A stretch of DNA of 64,000 nucleotides, taken from Halobacteriales archaeon QS_4_69_34. GTDB taxonomy: Archaea; Halobacteriota; Halobacteria; Halobacteriales; Halococcaceae. Shown here piece by piece: positions 17-52,046 of the stretch; the first letter of the stretch is position 1; every line of letters begins with the position of its first letter. The stretch lies in the NCBI GenBank assembly GCA_003021045.1, contig PXRN01000010.1, forward strand, positions 186,001 through 250,000, written 5' to 3'. Under the pieces are notes generated by a model that did no database searches, was not told where the DNA came from, and was given only the letters and a program-made list of their open reading frames with translations. The position numbers were made by a program, and so were the translations under genes.

Positions 17-676
17 TCACTCGCTCGTCGGAACGATCTCTCGCATGAGCGTCACCTCGGCCTTCCGCAGGTGTTCGCCGACCGTGCCCGCCGTCCGGCC
101 GAGGGCAGCCGCGATGTCCTCGTAGGTCGCCTCACGCGGGTCGCGATAGTACCCCAGTTCGACGGCCGTCTTCAGCGTCTCCCGCTGGCGCTCAGTGAGG
201 AGCATGAACAGGCGTTCCGAACCCGGCTTGTACTCGCCTGTCGCCTCCATCGTCACCCCGATGTTTGCCGGGATGGCCCCCATCGCCCGCCGGATCGCCC
301 GTTCGTCGCCGATGAGCCGTATTCGCAGCTCGCCGCGATCGGTGAGGACCATCGGCGTGTCGAGGACGATCTCGTAGTCCTCCGGGATCGAGAGCAGCTC
401 CGCGACCGTCTCGTTGGGCTCGAACCGCGCGTACACCAGCGCGTTGTCGCCGAGCCGCGAGAGCTGGTGGACCATCGAGCCGTAGTACCGCTCGGTCATT
501 CGCTCCACCTGTTCGTACTCGCCAGAGAACTCGTAGAGCATGACGGCGGTACCGTCGTTCAGCAGCTTCATGTGATGAATCGCCTCCCGCGTCACTTCCA
601 GCTCTTCCGCGACGACTCGATCGAACGGATGGAACCACCCCCCTTCCGGAACGAGGGTGAACTCGGCGTACCTCAT
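17..676 (-). CDS. Bacterio-opsin activator-type HTH regulator
   Basis: A 219-residue DNA-binding regulator of the haloarchaeal bat family. The C-terminal third (about residues 155-215) begins LTERQRETLKTAVELGYY and continues into a second helix pair, DIAAALGRTAGTVGEHLRKAE, which is the typical HTH_10 layout. The N-terminal part matches the bacterioopsin-regulator sensor region found with such HTH domains, with no obvious ligand motif. I chose the ATG at 674-676, which gives the common start MRYAEF; an upstream in-frame start would add 25 basic, low-quality residues. It is divergent from the ceramidase-like gene at 877 and so may regulate the hydrolase cluster, but that link is inferred from position only. 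Confidence 0.85.
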   Translation of the reverse strand: MRYAEFTLVPEGGWFHPFDRVVAEELEVTREAIHHMKLLNDGTAVMLYEFSGEYEQVERMTERYYGSMVHQLSRLGDNALVYARFEPNETVAELLSIPEDYEIVLDTPMVLTDRGELRIRLIGDERAIRRAMGAIPANIGVTMEATGEYKPGSERLFMLLTERQRETLKTAVELGYYRDPREATYEDIAAALGRTAGTVGEHLRKAEVTLMREIVPTSE

Positions 677-876: not shown

Positions 877-1944
877 ATGCAACGACGGGAGTTCGTCGGG
901 GCCATCGGTGCTGGAGTAGCCGCTACCGGCGCGACTGTCGCGATGACGAGTGTGGACGGCGTGAGCGCCCTCGCTTCGAACCCGGGACGCGATCCGCCCG
1001 GCGCGCTGTTCGAGGCCGGCACCGCCGTCAGGTCCATCGACCCAGCCGATCCATCGCTGGCGACGCACGTCGGCGGGTTCGGCACCTGTGAGGGGTGCCC
1101 GACGACGCGGGTCCGCGAGGGCGATCAGCTCTCGGCGCGCTCGTTCGTCGTCGTCGACGAGGACCGCACTGCGGCCGCCGCGGTCGCCGTGGTCGACGTC
1201 CAGGGCTGGTTCGCCGGCTACAAGCAGGGGTCCTACGGCATCACCGACCTCCGCCGAGAGGTCGCGGCCACCCTCTCGAAGCCGCGCGAGGCGGGCGGTA
1301 TCGGCGTCGAAACGAGCCCGGGCGACGTCCTCGTGCAGGCGACACACGGCCACGCGACGCCTTCGATCGTCGGGATCTGGGGCGAGACGAACGAGGAGTA
1401 CCTCGACTACGTCTACGAGCAGACCCGCGACGCCATCGTCGAGGCCGCCCGGACGACGGAGCCGGCGCTCCTCGAAACCGCGACCGCCGGCGTGAAGTTC
1501 GTCAACAACGTCGTGCTCGGCCAGCCCAACTCGAACGAGGGCTGGCTGAAGGACGGCCAGCTCCCGATCGTCCGCGCCCGGAAGGGCGGCTACGGGACCG
1601 GAGAGACCGGCGTCGGGGAGACCCTCGGGATCTACACCCAAGTTCCGATCCGCGAGAACATCGCCTACGGGCCTGGCCTCTCGGAGATGACCACCGGCTA
1701 CTTCGGCGCGGCCGCCCGGTGGCTCGAAGCCGAACTCGGCGGGACCGCCGTCGTCGGCCCCAGCACGCTCGGCGATCAGGTCTCCCCGATGCAGGGCGAT
1801 CCCGGTCGGCTGCCCGACGCCGACGAGTCGTGGACGCTGACGGTCGAGATCGAGGACGCCCACCACGTCACCGCGAGCGCGGCGGCCCCGACCACGACCT
1901 GCGCGACGGCCGAGGAGCGGACGCTTCCGTCCATCACACCGTAG
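877..1944 (+). CDS. Degenerate neutral-ceramidase-like Tat protein
   Basis: A 355-residue member of the neutral/alkaline ceramidase-like hydrolase family, exported by Tat (RREF followed by a hydrophobic Ala/Gly stretch). The first metal-binding segment is present as ATHGHATPSIVGIWG near residue 155. The second segment, which reads VNYSPHPTVLGG or VNFAAHPTIVG in the two neighbouring paralogues, is replaced by a stretch without the HPT triad. The protein stops about 150 residues short of the paralogues, ending in an unrelated tail. A 6-bp stem hairpin (1941-1955) overlaps the stop. It is probably a decaying or non-catalytic paralogue; a divergent active enzyme is less likely. Confidence 0.7.
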   Translation: MQRREFVGAIGAGVAATGATVAMTSVDGVSALASNPGRDPPGALFEAGTAVRSIDPADPSLATHVGGFGTCEGCPTTRVREGDQLSARSFVVVDEDRTAAAAVAVVDVQGWFAGYKQGSYGITDLRREVAATLSKPREAGGIGVETSPGDVLVQATHGHATPSIVGIWGETNEEYLDYVYEQTRDAIVEAARTTEPALLETATAGVKFVNNVVLGQPNSNEGWLKDGQLPIVRARKGGYGTGETGVGETLGIYTQVPIRENIAYGPGLSEMTTGYFGAAARWLEAELGGTAVVGPSTLGDQVSPMQGDPGRLPDADESWTLTVEIEDAHHVTASAAAPTTTCATAEERTLPSITP

Positions 1945-2058
1945 CGCTGCGCTACTAGCGCGCTCACAGAGCGGGGCGCGCCGCCACCCCCTCACCGCTG
2001 ATAGTTACCCGCATATCGAAGGCACATCGCCCAATCGTCCGGCGAGCAAGGAACGAAC

Positions 2059-3633
2059 ATGCCACCAGATGGCACGCGCGCTCCCACGCGGCGGTCCGTA
2101 CTGCGGAGCTCCGCGATCGCGGGCGGCCTCGCGCTGGCACCGGGCTCCGCGACCGCAGCTGACGACCCGGAGCGACCGGACGAGCGGTTCCTCGTCGGTG
2201 CCGCGAAGGCGTCGATGAACCCCGAGCCACCCTTCGAGGACGTCTGCTTGGGCGGGTACGGGGCGTTCTGCGCGCGACCGATGGAGTCAGTCCGGAACGA
2301 CCTGTTCGCCCGCGCGCTCGCCGTCACGGGCGACGCGGCGGGCGGCCCACCGGCGAACGCGCGCGGACCGCCGGCCGGCCGCCCCGGTCGTGGCCCGCCC
2401 GAAGCGGAGACGTTGATCGTCGTCACGGCCACCGCCGCGGGCCTCTTCGCGGCCTACAAGGAGGCGGTCGGTCCGTACGGCTGCCAGCCCATCCGGGAGG
2501 GGATCGCCGCCGAGACGGGCGTGCCGGCGGGGAACGTGCTGGTGCAGGGCGACCACAGCCACGCCGCACCCGACACGATCGGCATCTGGGGCGGCGTGCC
2601 GGCCTCCTTTTTCGAGCGGTTGCACGACGCCGCCGTCAAGGCGGCGACGGCGGCGTTCCGGAGCCGGGAGGCGTGTGGCCTCTCCGTCGGCACCACCGAA
2701 GCGCCCATCGAGTCGCTGTACCGCGAGCCACCGGGAAGCGCGACGGACGACGAGTTCCGCGTGCTCTTCGCCGAGCGCGACGGGGAGCGGGTCGCCACGT
2801 TCGTCAACTACTCGCCACACCCGACCGTCCTCGGCGGCCAGCACTCGGGGGGCGCGAGCGGCGACTGGCCGGCGTGGGCTGCCGACCGAGTGGAGACGCG
2901 GGCCGGCGGGACGGGCGTCGCGGCGGTCGGCGCTCTCGGTGCGCAGGACTGGGGCCGGGGCAAGGCGGGCTCGTCCGACCGACGGGAGGCGAACGCCCGC
3001 GCTCGGCTGGACCGGGCGCTCGACGGCGCGTACGCGGCGCGTCGCCCGATCGAGGGATCGGTCGTCGGCGTCGAATCGACGTTCGTCCGCGAGCAGCTCG
3101 CCCAGCCCGTCCTGGCGGGGAACCTCCTGCCGGGCGCGCCGGGCGGCCCGTTCGCGGACGGCGAGCTGAGCATCGACCGGTCGATCACGCCGCCGTGGCT
3201 GACCGGCGACACGGTCGGCACGGTCGTCTCCGCGGCCCGGGTGGGCGACCTCTTCGTCGGCACCGCTCCGGGCGAGCCGTTCCCGGAGGTGTTCGACGCC
3301 GTCCGGGAGCGGGTCGACGCCCGCGAGCACATGCTGCTGGGCGTCACGAACGATTTCCTCGGCTACATGACCGTCGACCCCGAGACGTACGCACAGGTGA
3401 CCCGACAGGGAGCGGGCTTTCTCGCCGGCTGCCCCGAGGAGACGCTCCTCGAAGCGGTCGACAATCCCGACCCCGCCTGTCCCGACCACTGGACGCTGAT
3501 GGTGTCCCCGACGATCGGTCGCCACGTCGTCTGCTCGCTCCGCGACGGGGCCGCGTCGCTCGGGTTCGACACCGACGGCGAGTGGCCCGACTGTCCGGTA
3601 CTGACGGCGAGCGACGACGTGGCGGCCGACTGA
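2059..3633 (+). CDS. Neutral-ceramidase-like amidase, Tat-exported
   Basis: A 524-residue hydrolase of the neutral ceramidase family, whose characterised members cleave N-acyl amide bonds using a zinc site. The Tat signal is RRSVLR plus an Ala/Gly/Leu core ending near residue 35. Both family signatures are present: GDHSHAAPDTIGIWGG at about residues 168-183 and FVNYSPHPTVLGG at about 250. A Gly/Pro/Arg-rich insertion near residues 95-115 looks like a loop. It lies 114 bp after the degenerate paralogue on the same strand. Archaeal lipids contain no ceramide, so the natural substrate is unknown; an N-acyl amino acid, lipopeptide or acyl-lactone is possible. Confidence 0.85.
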   Translation: MPPDGTRAPTRRSVLRSSAIAGGLALAPGSATAADDPERPDERFLVGAAKASMNPEPPFEDVCLGGYGAFCARPMESVRNDLFARALAVTGDAAGGPPANARGPPAGRPGRGPPEAETLIVVTATAAGLFAAYKEAVGPYGCQPIREGIAAETGVPAGNVLVQGDHSHAAPDTIGIWGGVPASFFERLHDAAVKAATAAFRSREACGLSVGTTEAPIESLYREPPGSATDDEFRVLFAERDGERVATFVNYSPHPTVLGGQHSGGASGDWPAWAADRVETRAGGTGVAAVGALGAQDWGRGKAGSSDRREANARARLDRALDGAYAARRPIEGSVVGVESTFVREQLAQPVLAGNLLPGAPGGPFADGELSIDRSITPPWLTGDTVGTVVSAARVGDLFVGTAPGEPFPEVFDAVRERVDAREHMLLGVTNDFLGYMTVDPETYAQVTRQGAGFLAGCPEETLLEAVDNPDPACPDHWTLMVSPTIGRHVVCSLRDGAASLGFDTDGEWPDCPVLTASDDVAAD

Positions 3634-3719
3634 ACCGTTCGACGGGCCATCACCGCCGGTGGCTCCGTCTCGGCTTTTCGTCCGTGGTCGCTACGCCCTT
3701 CTGATTCCGTTGGGCACGA

Positions 3720-5228
3720 TCAGGGCGTCCCACCGACGTCGACGCCCATCGGGCCGTCGTCCGCGTCGAACCGTTGCCCGAACTCCCCGGCGAAGCTCTC
3801 GAACTGGGCCTGTCCCGCCGGACAGACGTTCTCGGTGCCGGGCGGGAGTCGCTCGTAGCGCGTCCGGTCGAGATCGTACAGCTCGGCGACCGTGTTGCGG
3901 TACAGCGGCGCGGTGTCCGGGCCGAGCGAGACGGTTTCCTCGTAGCCGTCCTCGTAGTGGGGCTTCGGGACGAGATACCCGATCGAGTTCTGTGTCAGCC
4001 CCGCGATTACCTGTTCGTCGCTGCCCGCACTACTCAGTACGTCCACGAGATCACGCCCGAGCCGAGTGACGGCTTCACCCGGCACGGTCAGGAGTTCGAC
4101 CGACCGGCGACGGTCACCGATGGTGAGCCGCACGACCGGCGAGTCGATGGCGAGCGCTCCCGCCTCGGGTGCCGACCCGAACACTCTCTCGGTGGCCGTT
4201 CCCGTAACCGTCTCCGCGTCGTAGTACGGCCGGAGCAGGCCGGACTCGAAGGCGGTCTTGAACAGGCAGTTGTCGATAGGCAGCCGAACCGACGCCTCGC
4301 GGGCCGCGAGACCGGCGTGGACGCGCCCCGCCTCGGCCAGCGCGTCGTCCGCTCGTGCCGCCAGCGACTCGCCGTAGCCGGCGGCCGCGGCGTAGTCGGT
4401 CGCCCCACCGCTGTCGTCGGCGCTCGCGTCGCCGATCGCGCCATTGAAATAGACCGCGACACCGCCCTGCTCGCGCTCGACCGCGCGCTCCAGCGGCCCG
4501 ACGTAATCCGTCGCGACGCGGGCGTTCCCGCTGCCGACGATCGTCGGGTGGGCAGCGAAGTTGACGAACGTGGCGACGGTGTCGTCGCCCCGCACTCGGC
4601 GGAACTGGAGCGCCGTGAGCGTCGAGACCGTCCCGAAGTCCTCGACGCGGCGGTTCGCCGCGAGGTCTGCCGCGTCGACCGAGCCGACGAACGCCCGCGC
4701 CGGTTCGCGCGCGGCGACGGCCCGCTCGATCGATCGGACGGTGCGCTCGACGAGGTACTCCCGGTAGGACGCGGGAACGCCACCCCAGAGCCCCTGGAAG
4801 TCGGGGCCGGCGTGGGTGTGCGTGACGCTAACGAGAACCTGTGAGGGGTCGAGCCCGGTCCGCTCGGCGGACCGGCGGCGGATCGCGCGCTGCTGTCTGT
4901 TGCCCAGTCCAGTGACGTCGAGCACCGCCATTGCGACCGCCTCGTCGCCCGCGGAGACGGCGAGCGCCCGTGCGGAGACGCCGTCGCGGTTGCCGATCGC
5001 CCGCCGCGACGGCTGCGGGCCGATGCCGAAGCCGCCGAGGTAGACCCCCTCCTCGAAGTGGCGCTGCTGTGGGCTGGCGTCCACGCGTGCTGCGCCGGCC
5101 TCGAAACGCTCCGCCGGCGGAGCGCCGGCCGTCGCGCCTACACCCGTGCCTACGAACCCAGCGAGCGCGGCCGCGCCAGCCGTCCCGCTCCGGAGCACCG
5201 CGCGCCGCGATAGCCGTTCCCGGGTCAT
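3720..5228 (-). CDS. Neutral-ceramidase-like amidase, Tat-exported (second intact copy)
   Basis: A 502-residue hydrolase of the same family as the gene ending at 3633, convergent with it. The start ATG at 5226-5228 gives MTRERLSRRAVLRSG, a good Tat signal. Longer upstream frames are basic and not halophile-like. Metal-site signatures are VSVTHTHAGPDFQGLWGG near residue 115 and TFVNFAAHPTIVGSGN near residue 205, closer to the canonical ceramidase motifs than in the other two paralogues. A TATA element lies at 5281-5290. It is likely active outside the cell on an amide-linked lipid or signal, with the substrate undetermined. Confidence 0.86.
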   Translation of the reverse strand: MTRERLSRRAVLRSGTAGAAALAGFVGTGVGATAGAPPAERFEAGAARVDASPQQRHFEEGVYLGGFGIGPQPSRRAIGNRDGVSARALAVSAGDEAVAMAVLDVTGLGNRQQRAIRRRSAERTGLDPSQVLVSVTHTHAGPDFQGLWGGVPASYREYLVERTVRSIERAVAAREPARAFVGSVDAADLAANRRVEDFGTVSTLTALQFRRVRGDDTVATFVNFAAHPTIVGSGNARVATDYVGPLERAVEREQGGVAVYFNGAIGDASADDSGGATDYAAAAGYGESLAARADDALAEAGRVHAGLAAREASVRLPIDNCLFKTAFESGLLRPYYDAETVTGTATERVFGSAPEAGALAIDSPVVRLTIGDRRRSVELLTVPGEAVTRLGRDLVDVLSSAGSDEQVIAGLTQNSIGYLVPKPHYEDGYEETVSLGPDTAPLYRNTVAELYDLDRTRYERLPPGTENVCPAGQAQFESFAGEFGQRFDADDGPMGVDVGGTP

Positions 5229-5280
5229 GTTCTCCTGCCAGAAGGGGCGGAGGGGTAGCGATTGCGTCTCAGACGTGAGA

Positions 5281-5290
5281 GTATTTAAAC
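5281..5290 (-). promoter_or_regulatory. TATA box of ceramidase-like gene
   Basis: On the minus strand this reads GTTTAAATAC, a strong haloarchaeal TATA element in otherwise GC-rich DNA. It lies about 55 bp upstream of the start at 5228, which would give a leader of roughly 30 nt. It belongs to the minus-strand hydrolase and not to the acylase gene that ends at 5386. Confidence 0.5.
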
Positions 5291-5385
5291 GAGCGCCGGC
5301 GTGTGCCGGGCGTATGCCTCCTCCCCCCGGGTCGCCGGGAGTCGAGCATGCTGGCCTGTCCACAGCCCGGCCTTTCGGAACCAAC

Positions 5386-8300
5386 TCAGAGCGCGTCGTC
5401 CCCCGAGAGCGTCCCATCGGTGCTCGTCTCGTCCGCGTCCGTCGATCCTCCGGATGTCGTATCGCCGAGAAGCTGTGCGAGCACCTCCGGCGGCGGGCTC
5501 CCGATCGGCACCAGCGGCGCGTCGGGACGCTCGGGCGTCGTCCGGATCGTCTCCGTCGTGTCGGCGACATCCTCGACCTGCCTCCGGGTGACCGGGTGGG
5601 GCTTGTAGACGTTGTTCACGTAGAGAGCGAGCTGGTCGGTCAGCCGATCGGGATACTCGCCGGTCGCCTGCCCGCGCGCGAGCTCCGCGGCGGTGAGCTG
5701 CCCGGAGTTCCCCGGCGGGAGAACATCGCCCGCGTAGGTCGCCCACTCGCCGACTTCCTCGCTCGCGAGGGCCGCCTCGGAGGGCTCCTTCTGGGCGCGC
5801 TCGATCTCGATTGCCTGGTTGTAGCTCGACCGATTGCGCATGTCGATCGTCGTCCGGGGTGTCGCGCCGATCGAGAGGAATTTGCTCTCGTGGACTTCCA
5901 TCAGCCACTCCTCGGGATCGGGCGTGCCGAACTCCGCTTCGAGCTCGCCGGCGGTACGCACGAGCGCCCGTTCGACGAGGTCGTCCGCGGACTCGGTCGC
6001 GCCGGTTCGAACGTCGTTGAACCAGTCGTAGACGGTTTCGCCGCGCAGCGCGTCGTAGAAGGTCACGTCGTCGAAGACCTCCCCGTGGTCGCCCGCGTGG
6101 AGACTGACGGGAACCTCGAAGTCGATGCCCGGGTACTGCTTGGGGACGTCGTCGGCGACGTCCCTCCGGTAGGAGACGTCGAGCTCGTCGCCGAACGTGA
6201 GTTCCTGGAGGCGCTTTCGCGCCCCGTCGTAGATGGCGTGACCGGCGTGGACGTACCGGTCGTCGCCGTCGGTCGGCGGGTCGTAGGGCTCGTCGGGACC
6301 GGGCGCTCGCTCGTCGTGCCACGCACAGTAGGAATCGCGCCAGTTCGTCAGGAGCTCGCCCATTCGCCGGAGCTGGGCATCGTCACTCTGGCGGGCGACG
6401 TCGGCCATATACGGCACGGTGAACTGCGCGCTGGCGTCGTGGAGCGCCGCCTGCGAGATGAGCGTCTTCACGTCTTCGACGGAGAGGTCGTCGCTCGCCG
6501 CGTCGGGGATCGCGCGGGCGGGCACGTTCTCGCCGACGCCGAGTGCCTCGCGCACCCAGTGGTCGAGCCCGTCGACGCGGTGGATCGACCCCCAGTTCTG
6601 CTCGCCGCGCCCGGCACGCCAGCCCGCCGCGGGGCCGTTGTTCCAGTTGACAGCGTAGCCCCGGGAGGGGTTGCGGACCGTGGTGGCGTCGCCGTCGGGA
6701 TCGCTCGGCGCTCCCTGCTGGGTGTAGAACGTGCCGTTCCACTCGTGTCCGTCCGAGGTGGCGGGCAGACGGTGATCGAGGGTGCCGCCGCGCCGGGGCA
6801 CCTTCCCGGTGTGGTAGTACTCGATGTCGCCCGACTCGCTCACGAGATGAAAGTTGAACGTAAAGGGGAACTCCGCGAACGCCCCCTCGAAGTCGTCGAG
6901 ATCGTCGAGCCGGCCGAACTCCGACCAGATGAGCGACCCGGCGAGCTCGTCGTTCCGGGAGGTGATTCGCTGACACCACGCGACCGGGTTCCCGCGGTCG
7001 ATCGGGTCGGGGTTCCACGCGATCACGGGCATCGACTGGTCGACGCCCGGCGGGCTGACGCGCGCGACTTCCTGCTCGACGACCGCCGCCTCGGGGTCGC
7101 CACCGACCGTCGGCGCGACCGGCGAGGCCGTGTGGGTGACCTGGTGGGTCTCCATCTCGTACCACTCGCCCTGCCAGTTGTACCGATGCTTGTCGTCGGG
7201 GTCGAGCTCGATGGCGATAGTGTCGATCATCTCGTCGCGCCCGCTCGTCACGGTCAGTGCGAGCGCGTCGCGGTCGGCTCCGGCCGCGTCGCCACCGGCA
7301 TCTCCTGCGTCGGCCTCGGTCCCGCTTGCGGTGCGCCCGATGATCACAGTGGGAGCGCATACGACGCCCATGCCCGTGACGTCGAAGCCGTCGCCGTGGA
7401 GGCCGATCTCGTAGGGCACCGGCGGCTTGAAGTAGCCCATCTGGGGGCCGCCACCGAGAAGCGGCGCGTCGGTCTCGCTCAGCTCGCCGTCGACCACCAC
7501 GGCGTTCGAGCCCCACTTGAACCCCTCCATGATCCCCTGGCCCTCCCGCAGGCCGGCCGCGACGTCCGCCGGGACGGAGACGTCGCCCTCGATCCCCCAC
7601 GTTTCGACGCCGTAGGCCTTCTCGCCGGCGTCGGTCTCGCTCCAGACCGCCTCGACGAGCGCCAACTGCTCGTCGGGCACGTCCTCGAACTCGGGGACGG
7701 TCTCGCCGCCCTCGACCACCTTGTCCGCTTCGGGGATCGAGGTGTAGTGCTCATCACGCGTGCGCAGCCAGTTGAGGTCCTCGTAGGCCGCGTGGGCTTC
7801 TTCCATGGAGCCGAGCGACTCCTGGAGCTGGACGAGCGTCTTCGCGCTGGCCAGCTCCTCGCCGCCCGAGACGCCGAAGAAGCCGATGAGGTAGTCGATC
7901 GCCGCGACCGAGTCCTCGGGCTTCCACGGTTCGGGGGCGTGCCCGAGCGCGGCGAACTCCGCGGGGAGCTCCCCCTGGGCGGCCATCTCGGTCATCCGGC
8001 GGTTCACGCCGTCCGTGTAGCCCCTGATGGCCGTCTTGATGGTTTCGGAGGCGTTCTCCCACTGGGCCTCGATCTGCTCTTTGCTGTAGAGGTCGCGCTT
8101 GACCTGGATGTCGGAGGGGAGCTGTGCCGGCCCGAGCACCTTCGCGGAGTTGCCATAGCCGATGTGCCGGACGATATCCATGATGAACAGCCGGTCGCGG
8201 GCCTGTACGTAGCCGTTTCCGTAGGAGAGCCCGTACAGCGAGTCGGCGTAGACGTGACTCTCGTTGTACTCGTCGGTGAGGATCTCGACCTCCTCGGGCA

Positions 8301-8400
8301 GGCTCCCCGACCCTGTACTGGCCGCCCCGGTCCCCGTGCCGAGCAGCCCTGCACCCGCCGCGCCGCCGAGCGCGGACTTGACGAATGTTCGTCGTTGCAT
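5386..8400 (-). CDS. Penicillin acylase family protein, Tat-exported
   Basis: A 1004-residue N-terminal-nucleophile hydrolase of the penicillin G acylase / acyl-homoserine-lactone acylase superfamily. The Tat signal is MQRRTFVKSALGG. The alpha-subunit motif YGNGYVQARDRLFIMD is at about residues 60-75. The beta subunit should begin at Ser298 in KWGSNAVVV, followed by the conserved GGPQMGYFKPP and YEIGLHGDGFDVTGMG segments, as in penicillin G acylase. This implies autocatalytic cleavage after export. I preferred ATG 8398-8400 over an upstream ATG at 8424 because it places the twin arginines at the N-terminus. The C-terminal 35 residues are Ser/Thr/Asp-rich. It sits next to three ceramidase-like amidases. 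Confidence 0.9.
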   Translation of the reverse strand: MQRRTFVKSALGGAAGAGLLGTGTGAASTGSGSLPEEVEILTDEYNESHVYADSLYGLSYGNGYVQARDRLFIMDIVRHIGYGNSAKVLGPAQLPSDIQVKRDLYSKEQIEAQWENASETIKTAIRGYTDGVNRRMTEMAAQGELPAEFAALGHAPEPWKPEDSVAAIDYLIGFFGVSGGEELASAKTLVQLQESLGSMEEAHAAYEDLNWLRTRDEHYTSIPEADKVVEGGETVPEFEDVPDEQLALVEAVWSETDAGEKAYGVETWGIEGDVSVPADVAAGLREGQGIMEGFKWGSNAVVVDGELSETDAPLLGGGPQMGYFKPPVPYEIGLHGDGFDVTGMGVVCAPTVIIGRTASGTEADAGDAGGDAAGADRDALALTVTSGRDEMIDTIAIELDPDDKHRYNWQGEWYEMETHQVTHTASPVAPTVGGDPEAAVVEQEVARVSPPGVDQSMPVIAWNPDPIDRGNPVAWCQRITSRNDELAGSLIWSEFGRLDDLDDFEGAFAEFPFTFNFHLVSESGDIEYYHTGKVPRRGGTLDHRLPATSDGHEWNGTFYTQQGAPSDPDGDATTVRNPSRGYAVNWNNGPAAGWRAGRGEQNWGSIHRVDGLDHWVREALGVGENVPARAIPDAASDDLSVEDVKTLISQAALHDASAQFTVPYMADVARQSDDAQLRRMGELLTNWRDSYCAWHDERAPGPDEPYDPPTDGDDRYVHAGHAIYDGARKRLQELTFGDELDVSYRRDVADDVPKQYPGIDFEVPVSLHAGDHGEVFDDVTFYDALRGETVYDWFNDVRTGATESADDLVERALVRTAGELEAEFGTPDPEEWLMEVHESKFLSIGATPRTTIDMRNRSSYNQAIEIERAQKEPSEAALASEEVGEWATYAGDVLPPGNSGQLTAAELARGQATGEYPDRLTDQLALYVNNVYKPHPVTRRQVEDVADTTETIRTTPERPDAPLVPIGSPPPEVLAQLLGDTTSGGSTDADETSTDGTLSGDDAL

Positions 8401-8683: not shown

Positions 8684-9817
8684 ATGCCACAGATGGAAAC
8701 AGCCACCCTCGACACGGACCTCAGCCTCTTCAAGTACGATAACTTAGAGCAACTTCCCCCTCGATACCGCGAACTCTCGGAGGGCGAGCGCGCGGAACGG
8801 ATCGACGCCGCGCGCGAGGCCCTCGGCGACGACCTCCTGATCCTCGGACACAACTACCAGCGCCGGGAGATCGTCGAGCACGCCGACTTCGTGGGCGACT
8901 CCTACGCGCTCTCGAAACACGCCGCCGCGGCCGACGCGCCCTACGTGGTGTTCTGTGGCGTGACGTTCATGGCCGAGTCCGCGGACGTCATCACCGACGA
9001 CTCTCAAACTGTCCTCCTTCCCTCGATGGAGGCGTCCTGTCCGATGGCGGGGATGGCCGAGGCCCTGCAAGTGGACGCCGCGTGGGCCGAGATCACCGGA
9101 GCCGCGCCCGAGCAGGAGATCGTCCCGATCACGTATATGAATTCCTACGCCGACCTGAAGGCGTTCTGTGCCGAGCAGGGCGGGCTCGTCTGCACGTCCT
9201 CGAACGCCCACCGCGCCTTCGAGTGGGCGTTCGAGCGCGGCGACAAGGTGCTCTTTCTGCCCGACAAGCACCTCGGGGAGAATACCGCCCACCGGCTGGG
9301 CATGGACGACGAGACGGCGGTGTGGGACCCCTGGGACCCCGAGGGGAAAGGCGCCGCCGCGGTCGCCGACGCGGACGTCGTGCTCTGGGACGGCTACTGT
9401 CAGGTCCACGAGCGCTTCCGGGTCGAACACGTCGAGCGCGTGCGCGAGGAACACCCCGACGCGAACGTCGTCGTCCACCCCGAGTGCCGTCGCGAGGTCG
9501 TCGAGAGTGCGGACGTGGTCGGGAGCACCGCGACGATCACCGAGACGGTCGAGGACGCCGCGCCCGGCGAGACGTGGGCCATCGGTACGGAGATCCACCT
9601 CGCCGAGCACCTCGCACGCTGGCATCCCGAGGTCGACGTACTCCCGCTCTGTGGCGACGCCTGCATGGACTGCAACGCGATGCGTCAGATCGACCCCAAC
9701 TACCTGACGTGGGTGCTCGAAGGGCTGATCGAGGGCGAGGAACGAAACGCCATCGAGGTCGCTCCCCGGGAGAAGGAGCTCGCCGGGATCGCCCTCGACC
9801 GAATGCTGGAGGTCTGA
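8684..9817 (+). CDS. nadA: Quinolinate synthase NadA
   Basis: Condenses iminoaspartate with dihydroxyacetone phosphate to quinolinate, the second step of de novo NAD synthesis, using an oxygen-sensitive [4Fe-4S] cluster. It has 377 residues, the family's usual archaeal length. Visible motifs include LILGHNYQR (about 53-60), Cys91 in VFCGVTFMAESAD, Cys170 in GLVCTSSNAH, and the C-terminal LCGDACMDCNAM, which supplies the cluster cysteines. First gene of nadA-nadB-nadC, with only one base between its stop and the nadB start. Confidence 0.96.
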   Translation: MPQMETATLDTDLSLFKYDNLEQLPPRYRELSEGERAERIDAAREALGDDLLILGHNYQRREIVEHADFVGDSYALSKHAAAADAPYVVFCGVTFMAESADVITDDSQTVLLPSMEASCPMAGMAEALQVDAAWAEITGAAPEQEIVPITYMNSYADLKAFCAEQGGLVCTSSNAHRAFEWAFERGDKVLFLPDKHLGENTAHRLGMDDETAVWDPWDPEGKGAAAVADADVVLWDGYCQVHERFRVEHVERVREEHPDANVVVHPECRREVVESADVVGSTATITETVEDAAPGETWAIGTEIHLAEHLARWHPEVDVLPLCGDACMDCNAMRQIDPNYLTWVLEGLIEGEERNAIEVAPREKELAGIALDRMLEV

Positions 9818-9818
9818 G

Positions 9819-11579
9819 ATGGGCGAGACGACCGACGGCACGGCGAGCAGCGACGGTGGCACGGGCGGCGACGCCGCGGACACCGCGGACGCCGCCGGTG
9901 TGACGGAGGAGGGCGGGTCGGACGCCACCACGACGGACGTGCTCGTGCTCGGCAGCGGCATCGCGGGCTGTGCGGCGGCGCTCGCGGCCGCCCGCGCCGG
10001 GAGCGAGGTGGTCGTGGCGACGAAGGCCGAGCGACCCGAGGAATCGACGAGCTGGTGGGCACAGGGCGGGATCGCCGTTTCGAGGAGCGATCCGGAGGGG
10101 TTCAAGCGGGACGTCCTGGCGGCGAGCGACGGCACGGCCGATCCCGACGCGGTCGACGTGCTGGTCGAGAACGCCGACGACGCCGTCGCGGACGTGTTGC
10201 TCGACGCGCTCGGCGTCCCGTTCGACACCGCGACTCGCGGTGGCGAGGGCAGCGCGGACGGCAGGGACGGCGGGGACCGCGGGGGCGGGACGCCCGGCAC
10301 GAGCGAGCGCTTCGACTACGGCCTGGAGGCCGCCCACGGCGACCGGCGGGTGCTCCACGTGAACGCGAGCACCGGCAAGCACGTGCTTGGTCCTTTCCTC
10401 GCCCGCCTCGACGACCACGAGAGCGTCGAGCTTCTGGAGGACACGGCGGCGCTCGACCTCCTGACCCACGAGGGGCGCGTTCACGGCGCGCTGTGTGAGT
10501 CCGATGGGAGCGTCGCGCCGATCCACGCGGGCGCGACCGTGCTCGCCACCGGCGGCATCGGCGCGCTCTACGGACGCTCGACGAATCCCGATGGCGCGAC
10601 GGGCGACGGGATCGCGATGGCCGCGCTCGCCGGTGCGGACGTCGCCGACATGGAGTACGTCCAGTTCCACCCGACGGCCTACGCCGGCGACGACGAGCCT
10701 TTCCTCCTCAGCGAGGCCGTCCGCGGAGAGGGCGCGCTTCTCAGAAACGACGACGACGAGCGGTTCATGCTCGAACGCCACCTGGACGCCGAGCTGGCGC
10801 CCCGGGACGTGGTCGCCCGAGCCGTCGCCGAGGAACGCGAGCGGACGGGCGACGTCCGCCTCGACGTGTCGCCGCTCGACTTCGAGACCGAGTTCCCCGA
10901 CCTCGCCGCGGCGTGTGCCGAACGCGGCGTCGACTGGCGTACGGGGATTCCGGTCGCGCCGGCCGAGCACTTCCTCTGTGGAGGGATCGCCGTCGACTCC
11001 CGGGGCCGGGCGAGCCTCGACCGGCTGTTCGCCGTCGGCGAGTGCGCCCGTACCGGGGTCCACGGCGCGAACCGGCTGGCCTCGACGAGCCTGCTCGAAG
11101 GGCTCGTCTGGGGGCTCCGGGCGGGCGGGACGGCCGCCGGGTTCGAGCCCGACGTCGTCGAGACCCCCGAACTCCGCGACAGCGACCCCGCCCTCCCCGA
11201 AGGGTTCGCCCGCGAGAAGTTCGTCCGCCTCCGGCGCGTGATGGACGAGTGCGTGGGACTCGAACGCACGCCCGGGGACCTCCGACGAGCGGGGGCGGTG
11301 CTCCGCCGGCTCAAGGGCGAGGTCGACGCCTACGCCCGCACGCGGACCTCCCGGAGCCTCTACGAGCTCCGCGCGGCGAGCGTCACGGGGCTGCTGATCG
11401 CACGGGCGGCGAGCGAGAACCCCGAGTCGCGGGGCTGTCATCACCTCGTCGGGGACCCCTCGGCCGAAATCGCCCCCGGCGGAAACACGAACGCGGACAC
11501 GCCATCCGACGCCGACGAACGGACCGGTATCGACGAGCGAGCCGACAGCGAGGTCGAAGCCAGTGTCCGTCAGTCGTAA
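9819..11579 (+). CDS. nadB: L-aspartate oxidase NadB
   Basis: FAD-dependent oxidation of L-aspartate to iminoaspartate, which feeds NadA. It has 586 residues. The dinucleotide fold VLVLGSGIAGCAAALAAARAG follows an unusual 38-residue Gly/Asp/Thr-rich N-terminal extension. Flavoprotein signatures are SSWWAQGGIAV-like TSWWAQGGIAV, QFHPTAYAG, RDVVARAV and GANRLASTSLLEGLVWG. A Gly/Asp-rich loop is inserted near residues 140-165. The last 17 nt overlap nadC, implying coupled translation. The C-terminus past residue 545 is acidic linker-like sequence. Confidence 0.95.
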   Translation: MGETTDGTASSDGGTGGDAADTADAAGVTEEGGSDATTTDVLVLGSGIAGCAAALAAARAGSEVVVATKAERPEESTSWWAQGGIAVSRSDPEGFKRDVLAASDGTADPDAVDVLVENADDAVADVLLDALGVPFDTATRGGEGSADGRDGGDRGGGTPGTSERFDYGLEAAHGDRRVLHVNASTGKHVLGPFLARLDDHESVELLEDTAALDLLTHEGRVHGALCESDGSVAPIHAGATVLATGGIGALYGRSTNPDGATGDGIAMAALAGADVADMEYVQFHPTAYAGDDEPFLLSEAVRGEGALLRNDDDERFMLERHLDAELAPRDVVARAVAEERERTGDVRLDVSPLDFETEFPDLAAACAERGVDWRTGIPVAPAEHFLCGGIAVDSRGRASLDRLFAVGECARTGVHGANRLASTSLLEGLVWGLRAGGTAAGFEPDVVETPELRDSDPALPEGFAREKFVRLRRVMDECVGLERTPGDLRRAGAVLRRLKGEVDAYARTRTSRSLYELRAASVTGLLIARAASENPESRGCHHLVGDPSAEIAPGGNTNADTPSDADERTGIDERADSEVEASVRQS

Positions 11580-51396: not shown

Positions 51397-51783
51397 TCAG
51401 CGGTAGCGCTCCACCTCCAGCCCGTCGACGCGCTCGAAGTGCGGGTCGGCCGTGACGAGCGTCCCGCCCACCGCGCGGACGATCCCGGCGATGAGGTAGT
51501 CGAACTTCGCGATCGCCTCGCCCCGGTCGACGAGCGTCGCCTCGACGACTGCCGCCTCGCGGGCGGCGGCCTCGGTGAGCGGCTGCGGGGTCACCCAGTC
51601 GAGGCGCTCGCCGAGGTCGGCGACGGTTTCCGGGCCGGCCGACAGTGCCGCGCCGCGGTAGGCCTCGTAGAGGGCGGGCGTCGGTGTACCGAAGGGTTCG
51701 TGATCGCGGGTGTCGAGAAACGCCTCCGCCCCGGGGCGGCCCGTGAGGTAGTCGATCAGGTAGCTCCCGTCGAGCGAATACAT
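51397..51783 (-). CDS. vapC: VapC-type PIN-domain ribonuclease toxin
   Basis: A 128-residue PIN-domain protein, the toxin of a type II toxin-antitoxin pair. Acidic metal ligands are visible: Asp5 in YSLDGSYLIDYL, a glutamate in LYEAYRGAALS, an aspartate in AKFDYLIAGI and Asp in LVTADPHFERVDGLEVERY. It begins 2 bp after the antitoxin stop, so the pair is one transcript. VapC toxins cleave tRNA or rRNA; the target is unknown here. Confidence 0.88.
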   Translation of the reverse strand: MYSLDGSYLIDYLTGRPGAEAFLDTRDHEPFGTPTPALYEAYRGAALSAGPETVADLGERLDWVTPQPLTEAAAREAAVVEATLVDRGEAIAKFDYLIAGIVRAVGGTLVTADPHFERVDGLEVERYR

Positions 51784-51785
51784 TC

Positions 51786-52046
51786 TCACTCCTCGGGCTC
51801 GGGCGCGAGCGGCTCGCCGTAGCGGCGCTCCTCGCGCTCCCTGAAGTCCGCCTCGAACTCCTCGCGGAAGTCCTCGACCGCCTCGGCGAACCCCTCGACG
51901 TCCTCCATCGCGCCGAAGCCCTTCCATACGTCGCGCTCGCCGCCCGTGAGCCGGACGATGGTGTCCGTGAAACTCTCGTCCTCGCGTTTGTAGGCCTTCA
52001 GCCGGTCGTAGGCTGTCTCGGTGACGGTAATTGTCTTCGTCGCCAT
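51786..52046 (-). CDS. vapB: VapB-type antitoxin
   Basis: An 86-residue antitoxin. The N-terminus [22 protein letters not shown] is a ribbon-helix-helix DNA-binding segment; the remainder ([13 protein letters not shown], then a Glu/Arg-rich helix) would wrap the VapC active site. The antitoxin gene comes first, as usual. A palindromic operator at 52049-52064 touches its start codon, and a TATA box is at 52077-52083, implying autorepression of a leaderless transcript. Confidence 0.87.

Follow-up and report, generated by a model that had tools for sequence, protein, structure and literature searches.

Why does a haloarchaeal genome hold, next to one another, four exported proteins from two unrelated families of amide hydrolases, and do these serve a single purpose? 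The stretch of DNA analysed, here called the window, covers 64 kb (C10:186001-250000) of a 2.57 Mb genome that is 79% complete and in 38 contigs; 55 genes were called in it. The cluster and its regulator lie at the left end:

17-676, minus strand: P0005, regulator with HVO_0513_N and HTH_10 domains (Pfam matches)
677-876: divergent intergenic region of 200 bp between P0005 and P0001, candidate operator (proposed from its position only)
877-1944, plus strand: P0001, 355 aa, truncated ceramidase-fold protein with Tat signal (homology to P0003)
2059-3633, plus strand: P0002, 524 aa, ceramidase-fold protein with Tat signal, zinc-site residues complete (alignment)
3720-5228, minus strand: P0003, 502 aa, ceramidase-fold protein with Tat signal, zinc-site residues complete (alignment to 2zws and structural model)
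5386-8400, minus strand: P0004, 1004 aa, penicillin-acylase-type Ntn hydrolase with Tat signal, predicted self-cleavage at G297/S298 (PF01804)

After P0004 come nadA (at 8684), nadB and nadC, named by eye from their translations. Far to the right in the window (51397-52046, minus strand), a 128-aa PIN-like protein and an adjacent 86-aa partner on the same strand resemble, by eye, a VapBC-type toxin-antitoxin pair.

A first-pass annotation had described four neighboring genes of two unrelated amide-hydrolase families, all with twin-arginine signals, and this description holds. P0004 scores 294.3 bits against PF01804 (cut-off 21.3), and the other three share the ceramidase fold. The Tat motifs of P0001 to P0004 are QRREFV, TRRSVL, SRRAVL and QRRTFV, and Tat signals are kept in the orthologues P0006 (of P0003) and P0007. 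A scan of all 55 window genes for the motif gave five matches, the fifth being a 69-aa ORF that matches solely in its upstream extension; P0001-P0004 are the only four credible predicted Tat substrates. The chance that four such genes fall consecutively among 55 is 52/C(55,4), about 1.5e-4, a post hoc figure framed after the cluster had been seen. The cluster's four upstream regions were found to have no motif in common, with none scoring above shuffles.

Our preferred explanation, to which we give about an even chance, is that the exported amide hydrolases form an accessory cluster, specific to this lineage, which scavenges N-acylated compounds from brine outside the cell. The sequence shows Tat signals, two folds and a neighboring regulator, and three of the four enzymes have their catalytic residues. 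Export of nearby genes would not by itself prove a joint function, and the claim of a multi-enzyme system is weak.

The three ceramidase-fold proteins are mutually homologous (P0002 with P0003, E 6e-17; P0003 with P0001, E 3e-9). The neutral ceramidase family PF04734 matches P0003 at 29.3 bits, under the Pfam cut-off of 32.1, and gave no match to P0001 or P0002, the latter having no Pfam match of any kind; the C-terminal domain PF17048 gave no match in any of the three. Among P0003 orthologues, P0006 scores 27.4 bits for PF04734 and the protein from genome G368 passes with 35.4. The predicted structure of P0003 (pLDDT 68.6) matches 2zws (E 2.1e-20) and 4wgk (E 7.5e-20), and only neutral ceramidases match it convincingly. 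H139, H141, E387 and Y420 align on H97, H99, E411 and Y448 of 2zws, whose zinc ligands we take to be H97, H204, E411 and Y448, so that alignment positions agree for three; H229 was paired with H204 by motif rather than by direct alignment. P0002 retains the same zinc-site residues in alignment, and we infer that P0002 and P0003 are zinc amidohydrolases. Sequence and model together indicate that the trio are very divergent members of the neutral ceramidase fold. The first-pass label of three ceramidase-like proteins can be kept because of the mutual homology, the 2zws match and the Pfam pass of the G368 orthologue, although PF04734 itself is below cut-off or absent here and P0001 is truncated.

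P0001 ends at profile position 325 of 512, its C-terminal part missing; the HxH motif is kept, and the alignment gives no equivalents of H229, D243, E387 or Y420. The loss of metal-binding residues, which the first-pass annotation had named as evidence against its reading, is found in P0001, while P0002 and P0003 keep their zinc ligands. A weak model of P0001 still matches ceramidases at E 1e-6. Codon usage in P0001 is gene-like through to its end; we therefore rejected an old pseudogene, and P0001 appears to be either recently truncated or functional as a short protein. It is most simply read as a truncated duplicate that probably has no zinc hydrolase activity.

In a tree of ceramidase proteins, P0003, P0006 and the G368 protein group together with support 99/99, apart from both the short signal-less and the long haloarchaeal forms described below; their sister is a Teredinibacter plasmid protein, weakly supported. 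P0001 and P0002 are on long branches with unsure placement, and a four-member profile search for P0002 found no orthologue in 394 haloarchaeal genomes. No paper on haloarchaeal ceramidases turned up in a literature search.

P0003 orthologues were sought in one genome per species, across the order, and in the family of G368. The first search found P0006 in Halobacteriales archaeon QH_7_69_31 (51% identical), the second added the one in G368, and the third found none beyond these two, its hit G435 agreeing with QH_7_69_31 in contig number and position. The QH_7_69_31 contig carries, in this order, a longer ceramidase-like ORF with a broken frame, P0006, the regulator P0008, which shares 45% identity with P0005, and a hydrolase of S15 peptidase type. 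The G368 orthologue, which loses frame before E387, is flanked by genes for chromosome segregation and haem biosynthesis (identified by eye), with neither regulator nor acylase beside it. The broken frames of the long QH_7_69_31 gene (L076:1-2532) and of the G368 orthologue (L111:14990-16300) may be assembly error or decay.

P0005 matches PF24278 (HVO_0513_N, a sensor-like domain) with 132 bits and PF04967 (HTH_10) with 59 bits. It had been called a bat-type regulator at the left end of the cluster; the position and the HTH_10 domain agree with this, but the N-terminus is HVO_0513_N instead of the PAS/GAF domains that we take Bat regulators to carry. A regulator of the same type is found beside P0006, and in three genomes of another genus (g41) an HVO_0513_N/HTH_10 regulator and a Tat-exported ceramidase of 760 aa are divergent neighbors. 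A ceramidase-type gene with an HVO_0513-type regulator is a recurring element, shared by the window, QH_7_69_31 and genus g41; no such regulator is adjacent to the ceramidase-type gene in genera g44, g77 and g24, nor in G368. Most of the genomes relevant to the pairing have a few full-length HVO_0513-type regulators, and some have more; because copies are few in most genomes, repeated adjacency is unlikely to arise by chance. The tree of ceramidase-adjacent regulators is weak, and a single clade was not rejected (p-AU 0.238).

P0004 belongs clearly to PF01804. Its match to penicillin G acylase (PGA) places beta Ser1 at S298 and beta 23 at Q320, 22 positions further on, a Gln as in PGA. With NWNN at 585-588 and HR at 607-608, the Ntn Ser after the cleavage site, the oxyanion Asn and the Arg (R608) are all present. 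At E<=1e-3, a relative is present in 143 of the 245 haloarchaeal genomes searched, which weakens the surprise, voiced in the first-pass annotation, at a penicillin acylase with no known use in archaea. The close subfamily (E<=1e-100) is found in 16/394 genomes across the order and, within the G368 family, in 25/148.

The same annotation had suggested degradation of N-acyl amino acids, lipopeptides or acyl-homoserine-lactone-like signals. Quorum quenching, with acylase and ceramidases breaking down acyl-homoserine lactones or related signals, is compatible with the amide chemistry, and PvdQ is a distant relative of P0004. The NCBIfam model for PvdQ, however, scores P0004 at 30.1 bits against a cut-off of 950, on which score we rejected P0004 as an AHL acylase. 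PvdQ is taken by us to carry His at beta 23, against the PGA-type Gln of the P0004 pocket; a literature search found no paper joining haloarchaea, acylase and quorum quenching. We consider this explanation hardly credible, and nothing specific supports it.

Could acylase and ceramidases instead form one dedicated pathway, successively attacking one kind of extracellular N-acyl amide, such as lipopeptides or aminolipids from bacteria? P0004 is encoded on the strand of P0003, 157 bp upstream of it, and a P0004-type acylase is present in each of the three genomes that carry a P0003-type ceramidase (the window's, QH_7_69_31 and G368). The QH_7_69_31 acylase (58% identical to P0004) is on a separate 4.6-kb contig where the match ends 4 bases before the contig end, and the ceramidase contig begins inside the long ceramidase-like gene; linkage is possible there, on contigs too short to judge it. 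Against such a pathway, the two P0004-type acylases of G368 are on a different contig from the ceramidase, and neither the acylases nor the ceramidase lie near a contig end. Only 2/25 carriers of the close acylase subfamily in the 148 genomes of the G368 family have the ceramidase as well, leaving 23/25 without. The acylase is present in both ceramidase carriers of that family with p = 25/148 x 24/147 = 0.028, uncorrected for relatedness and with acylase already common in the genera concerned, for which reason strict functional coupling from co-occurrence was rejected. The acylase neighborhoods read in other genomes, including a survey of fourteen scanned by similarity of which eight were printed, showed no ceramidase and no common partner. 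Inspection of acylase and ceramidase neighborhoods in many genomes led us to reject a conserved four-gene island, and the single extracellular process proposed for such a set is not borne out. We judge a dedicated pathway improbable.

Gene order around the acylase is unconserved, the very pattern that the first-pass annotation had said would count against it, and contexts are unrelated between genomes; it is probably only locally part of the set. The genome has a second acylase, 55% identical and about 73 kb away, among other exported hydrolases, S15 and M14 peptidases included. These facts, with the degenerate appearance of P0001, favor a further alternative: unrelated exported hydrolases gathered at an insertion-tolerant spot, with no function in common. 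It must contend with the adjacency of the only four Tat genes in 64 kb and with the recurring regulator-ceramidase pairing, and we regard it as unlikely.

Two further observations concern acylase neighbors. Beside the second acylase (outside the window, on the same contig C10; L058:4448-6067 and 9004-10848) are two exported alpha/beta-hydrolases with C-terminal dockerin type I matches of 23.6 bits, just above the cut-off of 22.9, and 19.9 bits, below it. In genome G371 (L195:2715-11088), a P0004-type acylase directly adjoins an operon that, by eye, encodes a peptide-type ABC transporter and a binding protein, possibly a hint of product uptake.

Scavenging by the accessory cluster, the explanation that we prefer, would proceed as follows. 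The folded enzymes would leave the cell through Tat; P0002 and P0003 would release fatty acids outside the cell from N-acyl lipids, ceramide-like ones or others, of bacteria or algae that share the habitat, with P0001 a truncated and probably inactive duplicate. P0004 would cleave itself at G297/S298, its new N-terminal Ser then hydrolyzing acyl or aryl-acyl amides, and the freed acids and amines would be imported as carbon and nitrogen. P0005 may control at least the ceramidase genes, by analogy with SphR and the Pseudomonas ceramidase. The recurring core would be ceramidase plus regulator, the acylase being an independent gene placed here by chance. In Pseudomonas, SphR mediates induction of the ceramidase, and together they allow growth on sphingomyelin/sphingolipid as carbon source (PMC5150637).

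Scavenging may also take a specific form, in which the food source is the sulfonolipids, lipids resembling ceramide that the halophilic bacterium Salinibacter contains. QH_7_69_31, one of the ceramidase carriers, is presumably a halite-derived MAG. Sulfonolipids are sulfur analogues of ceramide-1-phosphate (PMC9304779), and S. ruber holds at least ten of them (PMC2596770). Because such ceramide-like lipids are present in brines (PMC2596770, PMC9304779), they are a conceivable substrate for an archaeon without ceramide of its own. The argument is ecological inference only, and the Salinibacter acyl group may be amide- or ester-linked; we think this form very unlikely. A broader version is a long shot: an archaeal ceramidase subfamily, exported by Tat and under an HVO_0513-type regulator, would let some haloarchaea graze on the ceramide-like lipids of halophilic bacteria, sulfonolipids among them, and the acylase would carry out a second step. 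If true, lipids would here be scavenged across domains by an archaeon that does not produce them. The divergent exported ceramidase subfamily and its recurrent regulator type offer a small, testable starting point for asking how haloarchaea might use N-acyl lipids from bacteria and which signals the numerous HVO_0513-type regulators respond to.

Among known systems, the ceramidase PaCDase/CerN of Pseudomonas aeruginosa (2zws, PF04734) with SphR resembles the locus in its N-terminal catalytic fold, in the zinc-site residues of P0002 and P0003, in export and in having a dedicated regulator. It differs in that identity in the structural match is about 19%, its C-terminal domain was not found here, export here is by Tat, the regulator is HVO_0513_N/HTH_10 where SphR is AraC, and ceramidase activity here is predicted. 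The long (~760 aa) haloarchaeal ceramidases of genera g41, g44 and g77 are alike in ceramidase fold and Tat-type signals, those of g41 also in the divergent HVO_0513-type regulator, but they are longer, match PF04734 clearly (141.7 bits in the one tested), and form a separate well-supported clade. The short (~440 aa) haloarchaeal ceramidase-domain proteins likewise have the ceramidase domain without the C-terminal domain, yet have no signal peptide, occur among sugar-catabolism-like genes, and form another clade; by eye, they recur beside similar aminotransferases, dehydrogenases and amidohydrolases (L062, L064, L065, L069), which suggests a different, intracellular pathway. From penicillin G acylase (PF01804; 7reo, 6nvy), P0004 differs in its 1004-aa length with insertions, its Tat signal and its membership of a haloarchaeal subfamily, while sharing the Ntn Ser, the Gln at beta 23, NWNN, the Arg and the two-part architecture.
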